Part shown: positions 36,443-52,205 of the stretch, one piece after another | Position numbering within the stretch: position 1 is the stretch's first letter | Layout of the letters: each line of letters starts with the position of its first letter | Assembly (NCBI GenBank): GCA_028753945.1 | Contig: JAPNXP010000006.1 | Coordinates: 3,162,001-3,226,000, forward strand | Source of the DNA: Hexactinellida sp. DTS-2022 | Taxonomy: Eukaryota > Porifera > Hexactinellida | Reading direction: 5' to 3' | DNA length: 64,000 bases | Translations under genes and position numbers: made by a program | Notes under the pieces: model-generated | Databases searched by the model: none | Told to the model about the DNA's origin: nothing | What the model saw: the letters and a program-made list of their open reading frames with translations, nothing else

Positions 36443-36760
36443 TAAAAGAATAAACAACTTTTTTGTGTGTAAAAGAATTTGTCTAGAAGAGTTCAAATAT
36501 ACAACCACTAATACAACTAACTTAGGAAACAACTTTATTGATTCTTGTAATACAAACATGTTTGTGGAATAATATTGTGTAAGGCTACAAAGTTCAGAGA
36601 ATAGTACACAGCACTAACCACTGAGAAATCTAGTCATCCTATTTCCAATGATTATGTCGGATAAGCAGTTTCTACAGAGCTCTAATGCACACAGTTATAA
36701 ATAGAAATATTATGTTACAACTAACTCAATAAACTGAATAGTATCAGAATCAAGTTTACA

Positions 36761-38008
36761 ATGGCGACACAGTTTCCAGAACCCATACCAGTGCCACTCG
36801 TAGACCCAATAGCGACACAAATAAACCAATCGGTAGACAGGTTGATACGCTCTCTCGAGCAGAGAAGAGTCCAGCTGTTGACCGACTTAAGGGACAGCCG
36901 AGAGGAAATGAGAGCCAATCGAGTGGCGCGACAAAGAATCGAGATACAAATAACAAAAACACGCGCGCTTTTCGAAGGCCAACTAATGCACAATAAGCTC
37001 CATTCCATGCAGGAGAGAATAGTGGCAGAGTTAGAAGCTACGCGAGCTGAAATGCAAGCCAATTACCCTCCTCCTCAAGACCTGAACTTCCTGTGCGACA
37101 CACGGGACCTAGAGGGACACATCTCCCGTCTGGGAGAGATTCTACAGGCCGACATTCCTCCAGCAGTGCCTGACTACGCTGCATTCCAACAACCCAGTGT
37201 TGCTGTTGGGAAACAAGGATCAGCTCCTGGAGAGTTAAACTGGCCAAGAGGTGTTACCATCGAACAAGCATCTGGACACATTTATGTGGCAGATAGAAGT
37301 AACAGTCGAATCCAAATATTCTCTGAAACTGGAGAATGTCTCAACCAATTCGGAGATCAACACCTGAAGCAGCCATGGGGCATATTAACCTACAAAGACA
37401 GCATTTTTGTTACAGACATAGGACTCGACGCTATATTCCTATTCAAGATGTCAAATCTCACAATGATAAAGCGAGTAGGGAAGAAAGGATCTGGAAAGCA
37501 AGAATTCAATTATCCGAGGCAACTCGCTATCTCTCCAAACCAACGCCTCTACGTGCCAGATAATAACAACAACAGAATCCAAATCATGTCTACAGAACTA
37601 GCTTTCCAAGACTCGCTACGACATCAAACAATGACAAGACCTACTGATGTTAAATTCACAAAGGATGAAATGTTTGTGTTAAGCCGTGAAGACAATCCCT
37701 GTATCCACGTGTTTACACAATCAGGAGAGAAGTCCCGCTCCATAGTTACCAGCGGAGGAATAGGAATGCAAGTTTCAGGAGCATTGTTCTTCTGTTTAGA
37801 CGGACGCAATAATATCGTCATCAGCGACTGCTATGTTAACGCAATCAAGGTATTCTCTCCAGCAGGAGACCTCCTACACACGATAGGACGGAAAGGACAA
37901 CAAGATGGAATGTTTAACTTCCCTTATGGTATTGCTATCCTCAACAACACTAAATTAGTTCGTGTCTCTGAAAACCAAAAGTTCGGCCTCCAAATATTAA
38001 CTGCTTAA
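36761..38008 (+). CDS. Coiled-coil NHL-repeat protein (TRIM-NHL-like, no RING or B-box)
   Basis: A 415-residue cytosolic protein from a single exon. Residues about 18-135 are charged and helical (VDRLIRSLEQRRVQLLTDLR, then EERIVAELEATRAEM-like heptads), predicting a coiled coil. From about residue 165 to the end there are some six NHL blades forming a beta-propeller: GELNWPRGVTIEQASGHIYV, ADRSNSRIQIFSETGEC, FNYPRQLAISPNQRLYVPD, NNRIQIM, FNFPYGIAIL. Propellers of this kind bind proteins or RNA. RING and B-box, present in full TRIM-NHL proteins, are absent here, and no upstream exon was found. The ATG is the first in the frame. A candidate polyadenylation signal AATAAA lies in TAATAAATATTT at about 38160. 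Base and codon use fit a real gene. It is bracketed by two copies of a noncoding direct repeat. Confidence 0.85.
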   Translation: MATQFPEPIPVPLVDPIATQINQSVDRLIRSLEQRRVQLLTDLRDSREEMRANRVARQRIEIQITKTRALFEGQLMHNKLHSMQERIVAELEATRAEMQANYPPPQDLNFLCDTRDLEGHISRLGEILQADIPPAVPDYAAFQQPSVAVGKQGSAPGELNWPRGVTIEQASGHIYVADRSNSRIQIFSETGECLNQFGDQHLKQPWGILTYKDSIFVTDIGLDAIFLFKMSNLTMIKRVGKKGSGKQEFNYPRQLAISPNQRLYVPDNNNNRIQIMSTELAFQDSLRHQTMTRPTDVKFTKDEMFVLSREDNPCIHVFTQSGEKSRSIVTSGGIGMQVSGALFFCLDGRNNIVISDCYVNAIKVFSPAGDLLHTIGRKGQQDGMFNFPYGIAILNNTKLVRVSENQKFGLQILTA

Positions 38009-38154: not shown

Positions 38155-38387
38155 TAATCTAATAAATATTTAATGGAACTATATCTATATTAGTGCCTGA
38201 ATTTTGTACGCTTAATAAAATGTACGTCTATGGATAGAGTTTCGTCAGAAATAAATATAAATTATGCATCAAGATTAACCCTTGCCTTGTTCTATCCTAA
38301 TCAGACACGAAACCTGTATTCCTAACATGATTGTATCTCGATAACACGTGCACAACAATTGGATAGGAGGTATGGTGTCAATGAATT
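38155..38387. repeat. Direct repeat copy 2 (uninterrupted)
   Basis: This is the empty-site version of 34700-35425, lying in the probable 3' untranslated region of the NHL gene. It ends where the hairpin-bearing repeat family begins. Confidence 0.8.
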
Positions 38388-39970
38388 AAAAAAAATCCAA
38401 AATTGCAGCCTGTGCCGACGCTTGTTCCTTGGTGGCACTATATTTTGATTTTGGTTTATTGATAGTGCCTCCGAAGGAACATGCTGTCGGCACAGGCTGC
38501 AATTTCGGATTTTTTTATCTCCATGTCATCATCACTATGAAGGTGTTAAATTATTTCAGAAGGTGTTTCAAAAGGCAATGACCCTTAGTAAGTTGGAAGT
38601 TTCGTTTAGATCACTTCATTTCAAAGATATTCAAGTTTCAGTAGAATATAATAGCTGATGACTCAGCATTTTTTATGTGAGTGTTGGGTCATCACCCAAC
38701 ATCAACTAACCCATTTTAAAAATCGAATTAACAAAATTGTAAAAACACATTTTATGGTGATGTCATCATCACCTCAAGGTGTCAAGACCCATTTGTAGAG
38801 GTGTTACGTGGCATAAGGATCAATTGATAAATTGGAAGTTTGTTTCTATCTTATTTGATTTCTGAGATTTATGATATTTAATTAATTAGTATAAATAATA
38901 ATTAATATTATATATAATTTAACACCAATTTCAATGTCAACTTACAATTATTAAGTTAAATTATTTTGTAATGAATAATTAATTAATTATTTGGTTATCA
39001 AATTTCAATTCCGCACTCTCGAAAACCTCTAATAAACAAATTGCAAGCATCTATATAAGTAATATACTGACTGAATTAATTATAATTAATTACGTCAGTA
39101 TATTAACAGTGCAATAATGTTCTCCAAATTCCTTATATAAATTAATTTAATTTAATCCAGTAATGCTACAATTAAATAGAAGCCAGCTGGAATTTATAAG
39201 TTAATTCAATATAATTATCGCAAGTTGAATCACTAGAGTAGGATTTAACAAGTTAAATCAATATAATTATTACAAGTTAAAACAATGGAATTAGATTTAA
39301 CACTTTACAGAAATTGAAGTGTGAGTAAACAAAGAAATTTCAACCCCCATTTATGGCAAAAATTAAACCCATTTTTAAAGAATTTCTTCTCCCAACAGAC
39401 GCAGAATTTAAAGATGAATCCAAATATGAAATAAAATTTGGGGGTTTAGTAAAACATATTTTGAGTTATGGACCAGACAAATTTTGAAAGGTGTTAAAGA
39501 TGTGTCCAAAATTTGTTAATCAAAAATCGTAACCCCAGGTGCAAATTAGACGGTCCCATCGCACCTACATGCCAAGTTTCAGCCCATTAATTATAAAGCT
39601 CTGGCCAGGGCACCGTCTACGGAGAAAAAAAAATCCAAAATTGCAGCCTGTGCCGACGCATGTTCCTTTGGTGGCACTATATTTTGATGGTGGTTTATTG
39701 ATAGTGCCTCCAAGGGAACATGCTGTCGGCACAGGCTGCAATTTTGGATTTTTTTCGCCAAGTTATCAACGCCTCAAGTTGTCAAGAACCATTTGTTAAT
39801 TGATCCGAGTCACAAGGAACGGTAGATAAATTTGAAGTTTGTTTCTACCATAAACCATCTTGAGTTTAATGCCATTCATTCATTATGTATTGATAAAAGT
39901 CAACAAATTTGAGTAAAGTCAACAAACTCCTTATATTATTTTATTTTATTTTATCCATTGTATAGTACAT
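38388..39970. repeat. Dispersed noncoding repeat, two consecutive units
   Basis: The hairpin at 38395-38515 is followed by the same order as 33225-33830. A second unit with a hairpin at 39630-39750 then matches 2345-2740 and 51460-51760. The second unit is cut off at about 39970 by the Helitron end (host TGTATAGTA, then foreign sequence). Confidence 0.7.
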
Positions 39971-40833: not shown

Positions 40834-40985
40834 TTAAATCATGTAGATTGCATCATAGTGGTTCGTACCACTTCCACAATGATTAATGGAATGAAATAGA
40901 ACTATTAATGACTTTCCTTGATAGATAGGATCATTGGGTATACCTAGATTATTTGCATTATATACGTACATCAGTAATCACCCAT
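40834..40985 (-). pseudogene. Out-of-frame C-terminal piece of the Helitron OTU domain
   Basis: Directly after WVITD the minus strand can be read in a shifted frame as VYNANNLGIPNDPIYQGKS followed by LFHSINHCGSGTNHYDAIYM and a stop at 40834. The NHYDAI motif is the usual place of the OTU catalytic histidine. A small indel near 40968 therefore ends the main frame early. It is too close for a spliceosomal intron (the candidate would be about 22 bp). Confidence 0.75.
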
Positions 40986-43900
40986 TTAGACGGGTCTGTA
41001 TCAGGAGCATTAATATAACTTACATTAATGCGGGCTAAAATGCCTAACATAATAAGTTCATTCACAGTTCCCCAAGAGTAATTACGCCGCATATTACTCA
41101 AGTGTTGCTGAATAGTAACTGCATTATAGCATTGGATGCCACAGAAAGCAGCAACATAAGGACTTTGTTCAAATGTGTCTATTAGAGAACCACGGATATT
41201 ATGATGCTCAATTTCATCACCGAAAATAATGTGAGACAATGTTCTAAAGAAACAATTTCCATCACTTGTTACAGGAACTATCCTGAAATTAAACCGATCT
41301 CTTATATTTGTACGCATAAAATCGTAATAACTAGTAGCAGAGACTCTAGACCCAGTATAGTTAGTCGGTCTTAAAGGTATTCTCTGTAGATTAATGCATG
41401 CTGCTAATGACTGTCTCATCGAAAATGTGAATGAATTAGCATTGTCATATGTATTTACGGGAGGCAGCACAGGAGTAGGGATGTACACATGACTAACAAT
41501 TACATCCTGAATATCCTTGGTTGTATTATCAATTGGTATTTGGTCAATATCAATAATATCATGTTGACTAGTAGCATGTGATATAATTGGTTGATTATCC
41601 ACATTACTACAGTCACTAACACCAGTTCCAAGAGAAATGAACATTGGCTTATGATCACTAAAGTATGATTCATAAAAACCAGATGAACAGGTCAAGTTTT
41701 TAGTGAATACACAATCCAGCTGAGATCCATAGTTAGTGGATACTCCAGACAAAGATTGCATCATCCCTTTATTTGCAAAATACTTTATCAAGGTATCTCT
41801 CTCAGGAGATCGGGCAAATAAATCTATATTGAAGTCCCCAGTAATTACCAAGGGATCAGAGTTATCAATTTTACATAGAACCTGATCAAGTTCCGAGTAA
41901 AATTCCTTCATTGGGGATTGTGGTGATCGGTATATAGACATTACCACGACAGGTTTATCGATTTTCATGGGATCATAGAACTGGAGAATCAATATCTCGA
42001 TCCTAGCGACATTATAACAGCCTGAGTGTGCAACTAAAGACTTATACACCGCTGGATTTCGGGAGTATATGTGTGTACCAGAACCAGGAAGTCTAGCGCT
42101 ACCATCAATTCTACCAATGAGAGTATGACCAGGGATATTAAAGTTATCGTTGGCTAAAGTCATTGTCTCCTGCAAGATTAACACTTGGGATTGTACTATG
42201 AATTGATTTACGGTCAAATCTTCCCAGTGTTTGTTCAATGAACGAACATTGTGTACATAGATGTCTGGACTAGTTAGTGGAATAGACCAGATAATAGCAC
42301 AGTGTTCTCTTAACCGCTTAAGTTCTAAGTGGACAGGATCTTTTTCAGATAACTTATTAGTCAGTTTTAGATTACCCACTATAAACAGACCAGATGCAGA
42401 TTTAGCCCTACTGAGCGCGGTGTATAACGCATTACGTAGCATACGTATTTCTATATGGACTACAACACAGTCGTAAGTATCGCCTTGACTCTTATGAATT
42501 GTAAGAGCTTCGGCTACTATGAAAGGAAACTGCTTCCTAACTATCTTATAGGAACTCACACCTTTCCCTCTCTGGAAACGTCGTGTTTCCAATCCAATAG
42601 GAGTCCAGTTCCTTGGAATTGCATTATCTCTAAGATAACGATGTTGAGACTTTGCTCGTTTGTCCTTTCCAACTGTAGGATCGTCAAACTCCATCCAGAG
42701 AATACAGGGAACTCGTTCCAGAGAATCGCTCTTGGTACCATATAAAAGTTTCTTCAAGAGGCCAGTAGCTCCATTAACCAGACCATCTTGTATGTCGTTA
42801 TTCACTGTCATGAGGTATCTAGCGCCCAGTTTCAAAAAGAGCTCATAGGGTAGTCCCTGGGTGTCACATTCCTTTAGGTGTTTAATAAGGTTACTCAGCT
42901 TGTCAGTAATACCTCCAGCATTGTCTCCTACTAAAGAATCAATAGCTATAAATCTAAAACCTTCAGTGGTTAATGCATTGAGAACAATCTCGTTATGAGC
43001 ATTAACACTGGCGTTTGTACTAAACAGATGGATAGATTTTATGGGAAGATTCTCATAAGAATTTTTCGCAATAATTCTACAAGTAAATAGATTTGTGTCA
43101 TCCTCAGATAAACAACAGTTAGCAAAATTGTTCAATGCTAATGCAAACTTCTGATCATCTTTTTGTCTCATTATTTCCGTCAGTTCTATATATGAGAATT
43201 TTTCCCAAAGGTACGGACCTACCAGCCCGTCGTAATTATTGGCACTGGAGGCTGAAATTTGAAATACATAGCTATCCATAACCGGACGTAATTGATGGAA
43301 ATCTCCAACACAGATGATGGAGACACCACCAAAGTCCAGTGAATTGTCCATAATGGCTTTCAATCGCTTATTAACCTGAGACAAAATTTTACTACCAACC
43401 ATGGATATTTCATCTATTATGATAACTTTCAAACAGCTTAGCTTACTTCTTAACGTGTTACAAACATCAGAAGATAAGTTGGGCATTTCGCCGTTAAACT
43501 CCGTTACAGGTAAAGCAAATGCAGAATGGAGGGTCATACCACGGATATTAAAAGCAGCTTTACCTGTAGGAGCTGTTAGCAGTACCTTAATAGCATCAGG
43601 CTTAGTGCCAGGTAGTGAATTCATAAACCTTACCAAACCTTCGTATAAGACTCGTACCACCGTACTCTTACCAACACCAGCACCTCCTCCTATATAGAGA
43701 TACATGGGCAGCTGCTTCATAGTCTTAAAGCAGTGCAGAGTGTGGAGGAATACAGTACGCTGAACCTTGTTCAAGCTGCGACACATCTCAAGAAATACCT
43801 CCTCAGTATTCATGTTAGGAATAGTGAAGAATCCTCCTACAGATTTAGTACCGGGGTCACTATTGGGATCTACAGTCCAGGGATTGTCGTTCCCTGGATT

Positions 43901-46900
43901 GTCTACCTGGAAGTCAGTATCCTCAATAACCACTGCACCCTCATTGTTCATTATTTCCTCAATAGCAATCCCATCAAAGTTGAGCTCATCAGGGTCCAAG
44001 TCCTCAAGGATATTAATAGCCTCGTCAATTGAGGATTGGTCTTTACTTTCAAACAATTCCCTATTCTGAGTAATCAGAGTAAGATGGATAGCATACATAG
44101 ATTTAAAGTCGATATTGTCAGTATCACTAGTGTCAGTTCTCCATGGTACAAACAGCATTAACTGTTCTCTATAAAAGTTAACTTCGTCCTGTATAATACT
44201 ATACCTTCTAAATCGGATAATTTTAGCTTTACGACGAAGTCTCATAAAACCTGTATCTTTGAGAGGAAATAGTGTCGGATTATCGACCAGGGACGCTGCT
44301 TCGTCTTCCATATTTTCCTCATCAAAGTCGGGATTAATTTTACATATTCTCTTACTAGATTGGAATTCATACCATGCTGCAAACTCTGCTAGGCATGTTT
44401 CCTCTAACTCGTCAGGTCGTTGCATGTAGTGCTCAATTAAACCTGACAGAAGTATATCTACAGAATCCTGTTCCATACCCATTAGAACGGGTTTGGACTT
44501 GAGCATCCTAACCCGTTTATTAGCAGGATTGGTGTTAATATACACATTTGCTCTACTGCACTTAGAGAGAGGGAGACTGAGGAGATGGTAAGAAACCTCC
44601 TGAGCTGATACCTCGCTACAGCTCTGAAATTTGTATGCTATTCCCCTCAGTCTCTCCTTAATTGTGGCATTGCCTGCTTTCAGATGCATTAAGGCATCTC
44701 TCAATAACTTAGACATCCCACGCTGGGACTTTCCGATATACGAAATAACGTAAACAGCACAAGCGTATGGATCCAATATGTATTGGAGATCCATATTAGC
44801 TTTCCATAAATGCAAAATAGTCGTATTATGAGCATTGATCCGCATTTCATTCAAATTTCGTTTCAGAAATATAGTTGGTCTATTTATACAAGATCTCAAT
44901 GCAGTTATGTATTGCTCTTCGGTAACATAGAGTTCATTAAAGAAATCCTGTATCGTTATACTACCTAAGTCAGTATCGCTCTTATCATAGGTGTCAATTA
45001 GAGTATATATTTTCTTAGCAGTCTCCTTAAGAGCTGCATTAGCAGCTATCTCCTCTTTGGTAGCCGTACTGGCATCAAACTCCAAAGGTTCTAGAATTTT
45101 AGTTGATACCATTGGAGGGTACGGAATACCAAACCTACAACGACGAAAAGACTTTTTCTTATAACACGTATTTGTGTGCTTATGTCGCTGTAACTTAATA
45201 TCATCCTCAGTTATTATACTAGTCTCATCTGGCAATTTACATGAGATAGTACGATCAATAAAATCTATTACTTCATTTAAAGGATTGTGATCATACTTAG
45301 GGGCATCTTGTACCCAAAGTAACGAATGCACATGTGGGGACCCTCTTTGCTGGAATTCTATTCTCAAATAGTAATCAGTCAATTTACCAAGGGGACTAAC
45401 CTCTGATCGAAGCACCTTAAATAGCTCCTTGGAGCGATGATCAAAGTACCTAGCACAAGTGACAGGATCTCTCCTTATCAGATCTGCTCTCTCGCTCCAC
45501 TGGAATTCCAGAACCTCTTCAACAGACAGCTTAACGTCATCGAGGATCTGTTTCAGTATCCTGAGTAGCTCCAGCCATTTAGTCTCAGCAGCAGACAGAG
45601 TTAGAAAGAACGTGGGACATCCCAGCTGTCTTATCATAGACATCAGCTCTCTCTGTTTCTGCTGCCAGAATGCAGGGGTAGACCGGACTTGCTTCAAGAA
45701 CTTAAAAGCCTCATCGTCCTCTACCATTCTCTCCAGATTGTCATCATTGAGAATATCAGCCACAGTTATAGCCTGTCCGTCATTAGACTTTGTTTTTCTC
45801 ATACAAATACTGATAGCATTGCTAAGACTAGCTGTCTCTACCAGTTTGTATTTGAGAAGCAGCAGAGGGATGTTAGTGCTACACCTCCTATCATATCTAG
45901 GGAATATATTAGAGTCTCATTAGCAGATTTGAAAATTATATTGAAATTTAATTAATTGTAAATAACAAATATGTTATTGGACCATGGATATAACATAGTT
46001 ATTAAACTTTAAGAATATCCATGGTTGTAACAAAATTATGTATAGTAGAGATTGAAATTATAAGTATTATTAGATAGTAACTAACCTCAAGATGTCAGAC
46101 TTTGATTTCTTGAGGATAGACAAGTCCTCAGGTAAGTCTCTCTTGAGACCAGCAAACACACAAGGGTAAGCTAGTTCCTCTATAAACCTATCCGTGGTTA
46201 AGTACAGAGGCTTCCTCCCTTCTCCAGGAGCCAATTTCATTAGCAGGTTCTCATTAGATAGCAGCAGTGTGTCTAGAGAACCAGGGTTAATGGGGAGATC
46301 ATCCTTGGTCTCATCCCAATCATCAATCTCCTTCAACAACTCCTCAAGGTTATCGAAGAGCTCCTCAATAGCAGGAACGGTCTCAGAACCCTCTTGTTCT
46401 TCATCCACTACTATATCACAAGGCTCGTCATTCGGATTAACAATAAAATTAACATTACCAGAACCAGTACGTGTAACAGAGTTAACCCAGTTCTCTGAAA
46501 CTACTACCTTCTCTAGCTTGAAGAGCTCAGTGGTAGAGAGATAGCGAGCGGCTTCTAACACTACATTCGGTCTTATCGTTTCGTATAAATAAGGTTTCGC
46601 GAACGATAACTTACGAAACAATTGTAACTGAATGGTTTGGGACTGTAAGAATGTCCTAGGTAACCGATTAACAGTCTTATCTACGTCTATGGGAACATTA
46701 ACAACCATGCCATGCAGTCCGTGCTGTCTCTCCCTGTCCAGAGATCTGATGTTCATGAACTCGTGTCTGGGAGATACCAGTCTCTGTTCAATCACAGTCA
46801 GACCAGTTAGCTCCGGAGGGATCTCGGGGAAAGTCAAGCCACGGCATAACGCTATCTTAGGTACTCTGCCATCTTTGATGTTAATGAGACAGGTCTTACA

Positions 46901-49392
46901 CACATACTCAATGTTGACTGTCTCATAGAGAAAAACCCAGAGTAACCGCGTACGTTCGTACGGTACGGTACGGAGAGTCTCCGTACCGTATTATTTCGTA
47001 CGGTACGTCGTACGGTACGCAATAATACGTTGTGAACAATTAACAATACCTATATACAAGTATTTCTATAATTCGAAAAATAATTAATGAACAAGGATCT
47101 AATCTATTATAGTTTGAAAATACAGAACCCAACAAAAATTAAAAATACCACAAAGTTCAAACCAATACAAAGGTAAGTTGAATTTTCTACTAAGAATGGA
47201 TAGTTAATCTTGACAATTTTACCTAACTTATTATTCGATTTAAAAAAAGAATCAAGTGCTAAAAGATAAGATTCTATACTATCGTTAAATAAGTACGTAC
47301 GGAGTGCGTACCGAGTGCGTACAGAGTGCGTAAGTACGGTACGGAAGGATAATCTGCGTACTAAGTCCGTACCGTACCGTACAGTACGCCGTACGCGGTT
47401 ACTCTGGAAAAACCTAAATAGAAATAATTATAGATATTAAATTGAATAACATTAACCGAAAATTAATTTAAATCATTTGTAAATAAATCTTATTATATTT
47501 AAAGATATTGATAATAATACCAATGGAATATAATATAATTACCTGTTTGACGAAATCATGTTTGCACACATTCGTTGAAACAAGTTTTTCTCTCTTAAGA
47601 ATGACTACTGTTTTCCTGAAATGGAGACATCCACAACAAGAACAAACAAAAGTTGGCCCTTCAGCTATCTCAGATAGATACTTGAGAATAACTGACTTAA
47701 GTGCACCTTGCATAGTCCTATACCTATCTAACTCAGCTAGGTTGTGCTTCATTTTCTCGTTTGAGTCTATCCGTTTCTCGGTAACAAGCTTCAGCTGGCG
47801 TTCATTATATTTCGCCCTCTCAGCCAGATCCTTACGCTTATCTGCAATAGCGGCATTATGTTTAGCCCTCTCAGCTGGATCCTTAAGTTTATCTGCAACA
47901 GAAGCATTATGTTTTGCCCTCTCAGCTGGATCCTTAAGTTTATCTGCAACAGCGGCATTATGTTTTGCCCTCTCAGCTGGATCCTTAAGTTTATCTGCAA
48001 CAGCGGCATTATGTTTTGCCCTCTCAGCTGGATCCTTAAGTTTATCTGCAACAGCGGCATTATGTTTTGCCCTCTCAGCTGGATCCTTGAGCTTATCTGC
48101 AACAGCGGCATTATGTTTAGCCCTCTCAGCAGGATCCTTGAGCTTATTTGTCAATGTCTTCGACCTATCATTATTATACTTCGCTCTAGTTTCGGGATCC
48201 TCTCGATCTTTTTTGACATTCGCAAGTCTTGTTTCGTTTTCATTATCACGAAACTCAGTATCATCCGTTCTCCTCTTTTTAATAGCATCTCTCTTTCTAT
48301 CCTTAGTAGCTCTATACCCTTTCCTCTTCCGAGACTTAGGAGTAGAGATCGGTGTGTCCTTGCTAGGAGTAGCACAGCTAGAGGAGCACTGACTAGACAG
48401 CCCGAGATCATTCATCGGTACAACCTGAGAAGTAATCGGGGTACGCTGAACGTCCTGGCTTAGATCAGCATTCATTTCAGATTCTGAATCTTCGTTAGTT
48501 ACTCCTTGCGAGCATAACTGTACTTCCATTGGATTCAATTCTCGGATAGTAAGATCGGTTGAAATATCCATAGTATCTAAAATATTGTATTGTGGGTATA
48601 GGGATAATTTAAATAAAATACCAAATACTCAAATTGTATTTCAGCTTATTTAACTTATAATTAAATTAACTTAAGTTTGAATTGTAAATAATTAAAACAA
48701 CAATCGGCTTTATTAATAGTAGGTATAATTATTACAAAAGATATACGTATAAATATCTTATTATTTCGTTACTAATGTGAATAATAGAATTGAAGTCATT
48801 ACTGAGAATGTGCAAGTGTTTTCATTGCACTTGTATGAAACACATCTTCACTTTAAAAAAACTAACAGTAATTATCAAGCAACATAGTTTGTAATGTAAT
48901 ATCATATAGTACCTCTTATAGTATTCAGTGTACTTAGTGTATGGAGAAGATGGCTGATTAGACAAAAAAACGTTAATTATTGATTTTAAGAATTATCGAT
49001 GACATCCTTTAATAGTTAATGAATTATATTAAATGGATAATTCGCTTCGAAAATATGGAAAAATACTTAATTAATAAACTTCATAATTAAATGACAATGA
49101 AATAATTACCGGTTTCTTAAATGACAATGAAATAATTACCGGTTTCAGATGAGAAGTCTTCAGAAGATGAGGCATTAGGATCTCCTCCGGTAGGTCCAGG
49201 ATTTAACTCTACTCCGCCGATCACTAGGAGCATCCTGATTACAACCAACAACAGGCAACACGATAGTGCTAATATCGGATCCGCCTGTTTCGTAATGGGG
49301 TAGAAATTATGTGTCTCATCACAGGCTCTAGGTAATCTACCTTTTCCTCCCCAGCCTCCAATTCGTGATCTCCAAAGCTCAAGAGAAATCAT
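40958..49392 (-). CDS. Helitron polyprotein: 2A-like leader, DUF6570, Rep, helicase, endonuclease, OTU
   Basis: This nuclear rolling-circle transposase nicks, unwinds and joins single DNA strands. Exons (minus) are 49392-49140, 48576-47543, 46921-46086 and 45896-40958; all introns are GT-AG and the phases (1, 0, 2) agree, giving 2353 residues. An in-frame TGA three codons upstream supports the start. About residues 42-65 are hydrophobic and end in GGVELNPGP. Residues about 200-340 hold tandem KLKDPAERAKHNAAVAD units. The Cys-rich DUF6570-like region opens with CSCCGCLHFRKTV. Rep has HVH at about 896-898 and YVISY at 1090-1094. The helicase has GGAGVGKS at about 1445 and IIIDEIS at about 1533. 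The endonuclease (about 1900-2125) has ILQETM, TGDFNIDL and SDHKPMF. OTU starts near 2240 with DGNCFF. The stop cuts the OTU before its histidine motif, which lies out of frame at 40985-40834. Confidence 0.88.
46938..47406. mobile_element. 469-bp hAT MITE in a Helitron intron
   Basis: A perfect 8-bp duplication GAAAAACC (46930-46937 and 47407-47414) flanks ends CAGAGTAACCGCGTACG and CGTACGCGGTTACTCTG. The interior near both ends is made of CGTACGGTACGG repeats. It sits just upstream of the splice acceptor at 46922. Confidence 0.95.
47795..48145 (-). repeat. 51-bp coding tandem repeats in the Helitron gene
   Basis: Seven units of 51 bp, each encoding KLKDPAERAKHNAAVAD or a close variant (the last KRKDLAERAKYNE). 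The period keeps the frame. Other Helitron N-termini carry Lys/Arg/Glu-rich repeats of a similar kind. The long plus-strand ORF across it is a shadow. Confidence 0.9.
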
Positions 49393-49837: not shown

Positions 49838-50700
49838 ATATACGCCTACTCGAACTCACAAGCTGAATAAATCTAGTTAACACTAGTTGAAACAATAGAA
49901 TTAGATTAACGCTTGTAATTGAAATGAAGTGTTAGTAAACAAATGGAATTTGAACTCAATTGTGGGACAAACTAAGCGAATTTGAAAATTCTTGAACAGT
50001 GAAAAGGTGTAGAAATAAATTCTCTATCGAATGCATATCAATTGAATATTCGTGCACTATTTATTGTTACTGTTGGAACATTAAAGAGGTGTAGATTGTG
50101 ACAAAAATAATGGAATAAAAAATGTTGACCCCAGGTGCACATCTGTAACCCATGAGACACCTATCCTGAAAATTTGGGCTCTTAATTAATAAAACTCTGT
50201 TCTTTGGAGTGTTTACGGAAGGATAATAAAGGTGTTAAGCCACTTCAGAAAGGTGTTTCGGAAGGCAACGACCCTTAAAGTGGTGGAAGTTTCGTTTTAG
50301 CTCACTTCATTTCAAAGATATTCAAGTTTCAGTAGAATATAATAAGTGATGAGTCAGCATTTTTTATGTGCGTGTTGGGTGATCACCCAACAACAATCAA
50401 CCAATTCGAATTATATAATTCACAAAATTGTAAACACACTATTTTTTAACGATTTCATCATCACCTCAAGGTGTCAAGACCCACTTGTATAGGTGGTACC
50501 TGGCATATAGTGGCCCAATACTGGGCCACTATACTATAGTATAGTCGGCACAGTAATAATAATGATAATAATAACCAACCAAAGCACTAAGATTAGAACT
50601 GGGCCACTATACTATAGTATAGTCGGCACAGTAATAAAGGCAGCCATTTCAATACTGGGCCACTATACTAAAGTATAGTCAGCACAGTTTAAAAAAAAAT
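49838..50700. repeat. Dispersed noncoding repeat, right flank of the Helitron
   Basis: Fragments in the order seen at 33890-34395 and 33225-33520, then three close copies of ACTATAGTATAGTCGGCAC (50535, 50610, 50665). No gene. Confidence 0.65.
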
Positions 50701-50792
50701 CCAAAATTGCAGCATGTGCGCATGTTCCTTTAGTGGCACTATACTTTGATTGTGGTTTATTGATAGTGCCTCCAAAGGAACATACTGTCGGC

Positions 50793-51456
50793 CATAGGCG
50801 CCGAAAATTGGGGGGTCAGGGGGGGTTACACCCTCCCTGATTTTTGTCAGGGAGGGTTTCACCCCCCCTGGCTGAGGAAAGAGTCAGGAAGGGTATACCC
50901 CTCCTGGTTGGTCAGGCAGGAAATATTAGACATTTTCTTTATTGTTTTAAAGTAGAAAACATACACGTAAACCCATAGAAAAATTATAATTCCATAAGGA
51001 GTCCTTCTAAATAGCATTGGATTATTAATATGTATACAATTATGCCCGTCAACATAATGATTTTCAGCCACCATAGCAGTGGCGAAACAGGGGGATGCGC
51101 TAGGGGAGGCGCGTTCCCCCCCCCCCGTAAATTGATGGGGGGCAACATTACTGGTGCGGGTGTTACCGTTCCCTCTGGATAAAAAATACAATATTCAATA
51201 TAATTTAGCACAATAAAATATACGTATAATTCATTCAAAACAAATTGATATCAGGGTATCTCGCAGTCCATTTTTTTATGGGGGGCTTGCCCCCAGAACC
51301 CCCCAAGGATTGCTCGCAACACTCGCTCCCGCCCCCCAACTTTAATCTTATACTTGTAAACTTTGCGACAATGCAACATAGGAATCGTTTTTTTGACCTT
51401 TCACATTTAAATGTAAAGTTACACCCCCCTGGCGCTGGAGAGTTTCGGCGCCTATG
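50793..51456. mobile_element. 664-bp hAT element splitting a repeat hairpin
   Basis: A perfect 8-bp duplication CTGTCGGC (50785-50792 and 51457-51464) flanks ends CATAGGCGCCGAAA and TTTCGGCGCCTATG. It has G/C-rich subterminal tracts and no transposase. It separates the two arms of the hairpin whose other copies are contiguous at 33085 and 39630. Confidence 0.93.
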
Positions 51457-52205
51457 CTGTCGGCACAGGCTGCAATTTTGGATTTTTTTCGCCAAGTCAC
51501 CAACGCCTCAGGGTGTCAAGAACCATTTGTTAATTGGTCCGAGTCACAAGGAACGGTAGATAAATTTGAAGTTTGTTTTTATCATAAACCATCTAGACTC
51601 TAGAGTTTAATGCCATTCATTCATTATGTATTGATATTAAATTATATTATTAGTTATTTAATTTAGCAATGTTATCCACGGTTGGTTGAGTTGAGTCAAC
51701 AAATTTCTTGTATTATATTATTTTATTTAATCCAGTGTATAGTAATATACTACAATTAAATGGAAGCCAGCTTGAATTTATAAGTTAAATCAATATAATT
51801 ATCGCAAGTTGAATCAATAGAGTAGGATTTAACAAGTTAAATCAATATAATTATTACAATTTGAAACAATGGAATTAGATTTAACCGTTTTACTGAAATT
51901 GAAGAGTGGGTAAAGAAAGAAATTGCAACCCGAATTTATGGCAGAAATTATATCCATTATTAAAAAATCTCATCATGCGCAGAATTTATGATGAATCCAA
52001 TGATAAAATAAAAATTGGGGGTTTAGTAAAACATTTTTTGAGTTATAGACCAGACAAATTTGTTAATCAAAAATCGTAACCCCAGGTGCAAATTAGACGG
52101 TCCCATCGCACCTACATTCCAAGTTTCAGCGCATCAACTATAAAGCTCTGGCCAGGGCACCGTCTACGGAGAAAAAATCTAAAATTACAGCTGTGCCGAT
52201 TGCAT
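51457..52205. repeat. Dispersed noncoding repeat, distal unit
   Basis: It continues the hairpin arm and then matches 2475-3215 in order, including TTAGCAATGTTATCCACGG and CTCTGGCCAGGGCACCGTCT. It breaks off within the second hairpin at about 52205. Confidence 0.7.

Follow-up and report, generated by a model that had tools for sequence, protein, structure and literature searches.

The stretch of DNA analysed here (the window) comprises 64,000 nucleotides (nt) of contig JAPNXP010000006.1 from the sponge Hexactinellida sp. DTS-2022, and it carries on its reverse strand a rolling-circle transposon, a Helentron, whose predicted protein starts with a short leader exon at 49140–49392. We consider this exon, with a probability of roughly 0.77, to be a functional-looking StopGo (2A) leader, whose release from the protein behind it is suggested by its sequence. 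Homologous leaders were found in a sister Helentron family and, beyond Helentrons, in Mutator-like elements and in an element with long terminal inverted repeats (TIRs); the family of the window element and its sister family are called F1 and F2 below, and the Mutator-like and long-TIR elements F3 and F4. If active, the leader would represent a translational device common to transposons of different classes.

The leader exon and its join to the Helentron protein

The leader exon runs from an ATG at 49392 through 84 codons and one further nucleotide to 49140, and its product is MISLELWRSRIGGW...VIRMLLVIGGVELNPGP. It starts with MISLELWRSRIGGWGGKGR, its N-terminal motif being MIS-L/I-E-x-W-R-x-R-I-G, continues with a hydrophobic run, about 20 residues in length, and next comes GGVELNPGPTGG, with the core GGVELNPGP. 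The StopGo/2A-like octapeptide G-V-E-L-N-P-G-P occupies 49192–49215 on the same strand, and the break is predicted between NPG and P. A GT donor follows at 49139 and an acceptor AG stands just before 48576, delimiting a predicted phase-1 GT-AG intron of 563 nt (48577–49139, reverse strand). The joined reading across it, SSET-DTMDISTDLTIREL (SSET-DTMDISTDL), is in phase and enters the second exon region, which belongs to the open reading frame (ORF) named ORF1. At the exon border a 30-nt tandem duplication (49087–49146, reverse strand) doubles the splice donor, with a stop codon preceding the second donor.

Donor and acceptor, all in phase 1, were present at eight distinct loci (the window, L001, L005, L006, L007, L008, L014 and L020), with introns of 118–919 nt; at all loci the join is predicted by sequence comparison. 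The script used took donor and acceptor motifs modelled on the window leader's family and covered 19 entries, 13 of which had both sites and correspond to the eight loci (L031, L034, L035, L037 and L038 being longer cuts of five among them). It returned the donor alone in L003, L004 and L009, the acceptor alone in L010 and neither in L013, and skipped L024, where no leader start was found. In L013 the leader has its hydrophobic segment duplicated (ILLVIGILLVIGG), and the script detected no F1-type splice site there.

In the sister family F2 (L047, L048 and L050, the first two 99.8% identical) the leader is joined directly, without any intron, to a homologous ORF1. A search with the related protein P0011 revealed 18 loci with this intron-less fusion in the same genome, counting matches that begin at residue 1, extend over at least 227 residues without a stop and lie in an open frame of at least 356 residues. 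The 2A core is present in 12 of the 13 fused loci on contigs C1–C13, and both fusion and core are kept in 10 of 10 proteins from other assemblies (P0003–P0012). P0003 and P0011 are probably from another species, since their top-scoring matches, when searched back against the sponge genome, are 71–81% identical. Among fetched elements with a core frame of at least 1650 residues, all five (the window, L031, L038, L047 and L048) bear the 2A core.

An initial annotation of this DNA had proposed the exon and its in-phase GT-AG join to a Helitron protein. The exon was recovered with exactly the sequence and coordinates given there, and the predicted join agrees with the sites and phase seen at the eight loci and with the F2 fusions. 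It had also stated beforehand that the leader should be kept in related Helitrons; we found it at the 18 fused F2 loci, in the ten proteins from other assemblies and at the eight loci of the spliced type.

Conservation of the 2A core

Sought as a degenerate DNA pattern, (G/D/E)(V/I/M)ExNPGP has 128 sites in the 112 Mb genome (65 on the forward and 63 on the reverse strand), and the reversed octapeptide pattern, taken as a control, has none in the same 112 Mb, which argues that the core is not due to chance. A single genome thus holds 128 candidate 2A sites, dozens of which lie inside this transposon leader. Searched against its own genome, the window leader gave 116 matches at E ≤ 1 (best E 9.9e-54). 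On C1–C13, the core pattern was found in 43 of the 57 stop-free matches that extend into the core from a start no later than query residue 30, and in 46 of 64 when any start was allowed. A database set of 125 proteins was also collected; judged by the N-terminal 50 columns alone, 103 of them match, of which 102 have the length needed to assess the core. The pattern (D/G/C/N)(V/I)ExNPGP occurs in 84 of these 102 leaders, or in 87 when H is permitted for N; position 12 (p12), confined to D, G, C or N by the pattern itself, is G in 63 of the 84, D in 16, C in 3 and N in 2. One of the relatives listed, P0068, comes from the glass sponge Oopsacas minuta. Across 13 diverse leaders, hand-chosen with intact cores, the invariant residues are M1, R8, I11, G59, E62, P65, G66 and P67. 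Moreover, the ratio of nonsynonymous to synonymous substitution rates (dN/dS) is 0.10–0.36 in 26 of the 27 F1 pairs that gave a ratio (eight equal-length leaders, L006 being left out), and 0.16–0.52 in F3 pairs.

The comparison with viral StopGo sites bears directly on the G at p12. The initial annotation had supposed that G in place of D may lower activity; viral proteomes suggest otherwise, G being a common natural variant, as prevalent at p12 as D (PMC12846837). The caveat given beside that result is that G at p12 probably requires compensating contacts from upstream residues (PMC12846837). The viral motif was widened in the same work to (D/G/C/N)(V/I)ExNPGP, which the GVELNPGP of the window leader meets, and rare viral variants, including H for N, were reported to show activities of roughly 90% or above where they occur naturally (PMC12846837). 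The core variants observed in our leaders (G, D, C and N at p12, and H at p16) are among those independently reported in viruses. The upstream context of the window leader is L-rich with GG before VE, resembling by eye, unscored, the viral class that ends in (A/G/S)G at p12, designated motif 5 and associated with P at p15 (PMC12846837). In our judgement the leader stands near motif 5, and as in viruses the frame beyond the final P continues into another protein, through a predicted in-phase splice in F1 and by direct fusion in F2. The viral sites lie in virus polyproteins, however, whereas the present one, a putative site, lies in a transposon and has L and not P at p15.

Several observations weigh against a StopGo leader. 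Among the 57 own-genome matches, 14 lack the strict pattern; seven of these are accounted for by sequence, with three identical NSGP copies (L010–L012), one NPGL (L026) and three EHPGP (L025, L029 and L030). One fused F2 locus of the 13, C11:1615799, is without the core pattern, and so are 15 of the 102 database leaders even with H permitted, two of them having A (P0019) or S (P0054) at p12. The database figure is itself biased upward and its rows are not independent, because the collecting queries included the core and because near-duplicates and the window's own protein are present. Similarly, the dN/dS values hold for intact leaders alone, the leaders having been picked by a pattern that needs most of the core (as was the set used for hydropathy). 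In F1 the pair L001/L003 reaches 0.64 (3 changes) and one further pair is saturated, one F3 pair stands at 1.07 (6 changes), and the F2 value of 0.60 rests on 6 changes. The splice script looked for motifs built from the window family itself. As for the viral comparison, motif 5 prefers P where the window leader has L, and the assays described in the section concerned were made on motifs 1, 3, 4 and 6 but not on motif 5 (PMC12846837). Finally, F2A loses its activity when D at p12 is changed to A, and inactivity is frequent among chimeric 2As (PMC12846837).

Related leaders and their possible function

The frames of F3, of up to 912 residues, start with the leader and contain a Mutator transposase domain (PF20700, E 1.5e-36), with a further match to PHD below threshold; P0126 and P0127 are their counterparts in other assemblies. 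The octapeptide reads GVEEHPGP in an F3 leader and GIEINPGP in an F2 leader. In F4 (L045, L046 and L049) the leader is a short frame within the element, whose TIRs measure at least 688 nt in L046. F4 and the Helentron are alike in combining a leader of the same family with an OTU domain (PF02338, E 2.3e-9 in L045); the 761-residue frame of L045 had no Pfam or NCBIfam match, and its one PDB match stood at E 0.65. With the window leader as query, scores begin at E 1.8e-16 for the F3 loci fetched and, among the matches listed, at about 9e-10 for F4 and about 1e-8 for F2. Cores of the D type are present in L051, L053 and L054, and L052 has a leader of this type, GDVEVNPGP, whose N-terminus (MGVDLCTLRNHIG) is different. 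In L052 the leader is followed by stops and then by a frame whose SSIWG stretch resembles that of F4. Since DNA transposons that are unrelated to one another have homologous leaders, the leader looks modular in these comparisons. Perhaps a transferable cassette of leader and StopGo core, some 60–70 residues long, passes between unrelated transposons (Helentron, Mutator-like and long-TIR), being swapped among elements that share recent catalytic cores and kept for the free leader or for the Pro start; we give this idea an even chance.

Two further candidate hosts of the leader were rejected. P0109 was not accepted as a leader on a non-LTR retrotransposon, its tail resembling AP-endonucleases weakly (PDB E 0.24), with no Pfam match at E ≤ 0.1 and no match to the window endonuclease; the motifs of this tail make such an endonuclease a tentative lead. 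As for viral contigs, scanning them with the leader alignment yielded 37 stretches that fit the pattern, and tblastn found no relative there.

The Helentrons themselves appear as mosaics. Synonymous divergence (dS) between the window element (40844–48628) and L048 is 0.11 in the core, 0.14 in the DUF6570 frame and 1.5 overall in ORF1, with the first ORF1 block saturated. For L038 the corresponding figures are 0.11, 0.10 and 0.59, and the first ORF1 block reaches 1.87. In these comparisons ORF1 extended from stop to stop and so contained intron edges, and misalignment of the first blocks is possible. In both pairs dS drops to 0.2–0.3 in the last part of ORF1. Either the 5′ modules were exchanged or else the cores were homogenised, and the 2A core is retained with the diverged 5′ modules in each element compared. 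If the leader is active, sister elements with similar cores and different leaders would offer a natural comparison of its role.

As a StopGo leader, the exon would act during translation. On reaching NPG, a ribosome would let go of the leader, about 66 residues long, with no stop codon involved, and would restart at Pro, one mRNA thereby giving a free leader and a Helentron protein with an N-terminal Pro. The released leader may have a role of its own, since its motif MIS-x-E-x-W/Y-R-x-R-I-G, about 50 residues N-terminal of the 2A core, is retained from one family to another. In leaders with a hydrophobic run, the separation would also hold the replicase off the secretory route.

That run raises the question of whether the leader is rather a signal sequence. 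The best 19-residue Kyte-Doolittle mean is 2.48–3.54 in the leaders of F1, F3, F4 and the D type, and 0.75–1.28 in F2 and its database relatives. In the style of sea-urchin NLRs, a signal-sequence leader with partial StopGo could divide secretory from cytosolic protein, which would suit the position of the hydrophobic run immediately N-terminal to the 2A core in F1, F3 and F4 and has a precedent (PMC4981915). Yet F2, with its run reduced to such values, keeps the core in the fused loci and relatives counted above, which argues that membrane targeting is not the unifier, and we rejected a signal peptide as the sole conserved function. Moreover, DNA replication proteins need the nucleus and not the secretory route, and such dual targeting appears unlikely to us. 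From the sequences compared, the common thread of the leaders is the 2A core together with the N-terminal motif. The hydrophobic run of the "signal-like" leader in the initial annotation is present in F1, F3 and F4, but "signal-like" is not supported as an essential property; of its interpretation overall, the 2A-like leader is supported, the signal as its essence is not, and the occurrence in other DNA transposons had gone unseen.

Other explanations concern the core itself. Part of the ribosomes might drop off after the leader and keep the transposase dose low, as would suit a transposon, but this leaves unexplained why the leader has a conserved motif at its N-terminus, and we rate it slightly below dual targeting. 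Little different, and if anything a shade lower, is our estimate for a leader that is a conserved protein domain, with NPGP structural and inactive and no skipping taking place. Activity indeed cannot be proved by conservation alone, the N-terminal motif reveals that the leader is under a further constraint, and the 14 own-genome matches without a strict core fit this explanation. Against it, the 84 of 102 database leaders with the widened viral core were chosen by their N-terminal part, and three more have H at p16, with which viral sites are active (PMC12846837); L036, a region that takes in two of the three NSGP copies and extends from L012 to past L010, holds no frame of at least 200 residues. 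From the ATG that exon 2 has of its own, one could argue that the leader frame arose by chance or forms a small gene apart, unjoined to the Helentron protein; with splice sites and phase agreeing at eight loci and intron-less fusions at 18, we rejected it as highly improbable.

StopGo leaders of this kind have partial parallels elsewhere. 2A sequences have been described from viruses, from non-LTR retrotransposons and from NLRs (PMC4981915, PMC11512398), and among the literature matches listed we found no description of them in Helitrons or other DNA transposons, though an earlier report may exist. Apurinic endonuclease (APE)-type non-LTR retrotransposons likewise contain 2A-like sequences in a mobile-element protein (PMC4981915), but the present element is a Helentron of the rolling-circle kind, the four of its ORFs that were scanned show no reverse transcriptase domain (the PF14529 match there is an endonuclease domain), and its leader is N-terminal, distant from the C-terminal AP-endonuclease. 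The "2A-like" signals of sea-urchin NLRs are also N-terminal hydrophobic leaders that end in a 2A core; they measure 26 residues and sit on immune receptors (PMC4981915), whereas our own-genome leaders measure 60–73 residues to the final P, sit on transposon proteins, carry the W/Y-R-x-R-I-G motif and in one family (F2) lack the hydrophobic run. No NACHT domain was among the Pfam matches of the same four ORFs.

The Helentron and its surroundings

By domain content, the window element is a Helentron. Its core frame (40958–45916, reverse strand; 1652 residues) encodes a Helitron_like_N Rep (PF14214, E 4.3e-28), a PIF1-like helicase (PF05970, E 5.6e-25) and, at residues 1238–1425, an AP-type endonuclease (PF14529, E 1.7e-7; PF03372, E 2.2e-7), together with an OTU-like match (PF02338, E 0.0067) weaker than the curated cut-off. 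Helentrons are defined by a Rep/helicase with a C-terminal AP-endonuclease, often accompanied by an OTU-like protease (PMC4067079), and the window element shares the Rep/helicase and the AP-endonuclease, with the weak match as a candidate OTU-like domain; it differs in its DUF6570 and repeat-bearing ORF1 and in the 2A leader, which goes unmentioned in the parts of PMC4067079 relied on here. The frame of the window copy stops early, ahead of an NHYD stretch near the end of the OTU domain, and is about 45–50 residues shorter at its end than those of the sister copies L031, L038, L047 and L048 (1697–1709 residues). The "Helitron polyprotein" of the initial annotation does have Helitron domains; by these it is more precisely a Helentron, and its core frame ends early.

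Upstream of the core on the reverse strand, an ORF with DUF6570 (PF20209) lies at 46070–46990, and the second exon region with ORF1, which has 17-residue (51-nt) repeats and a CSCCGC motif, at 47468–48576. The repeats of ORF1 correspond to seven overlapping members of a 153-nt family, spaced at 51 nt, at 47752–48210. Direct and inverted repeats flank the element at 38377–39900 and 50097–52177 and also adjoin other Helentron copies; they are possibly non-autonomous relatives. Beyond them, a frame of 427 residues at 36725–38008 resembles an NHL-repeat protein.
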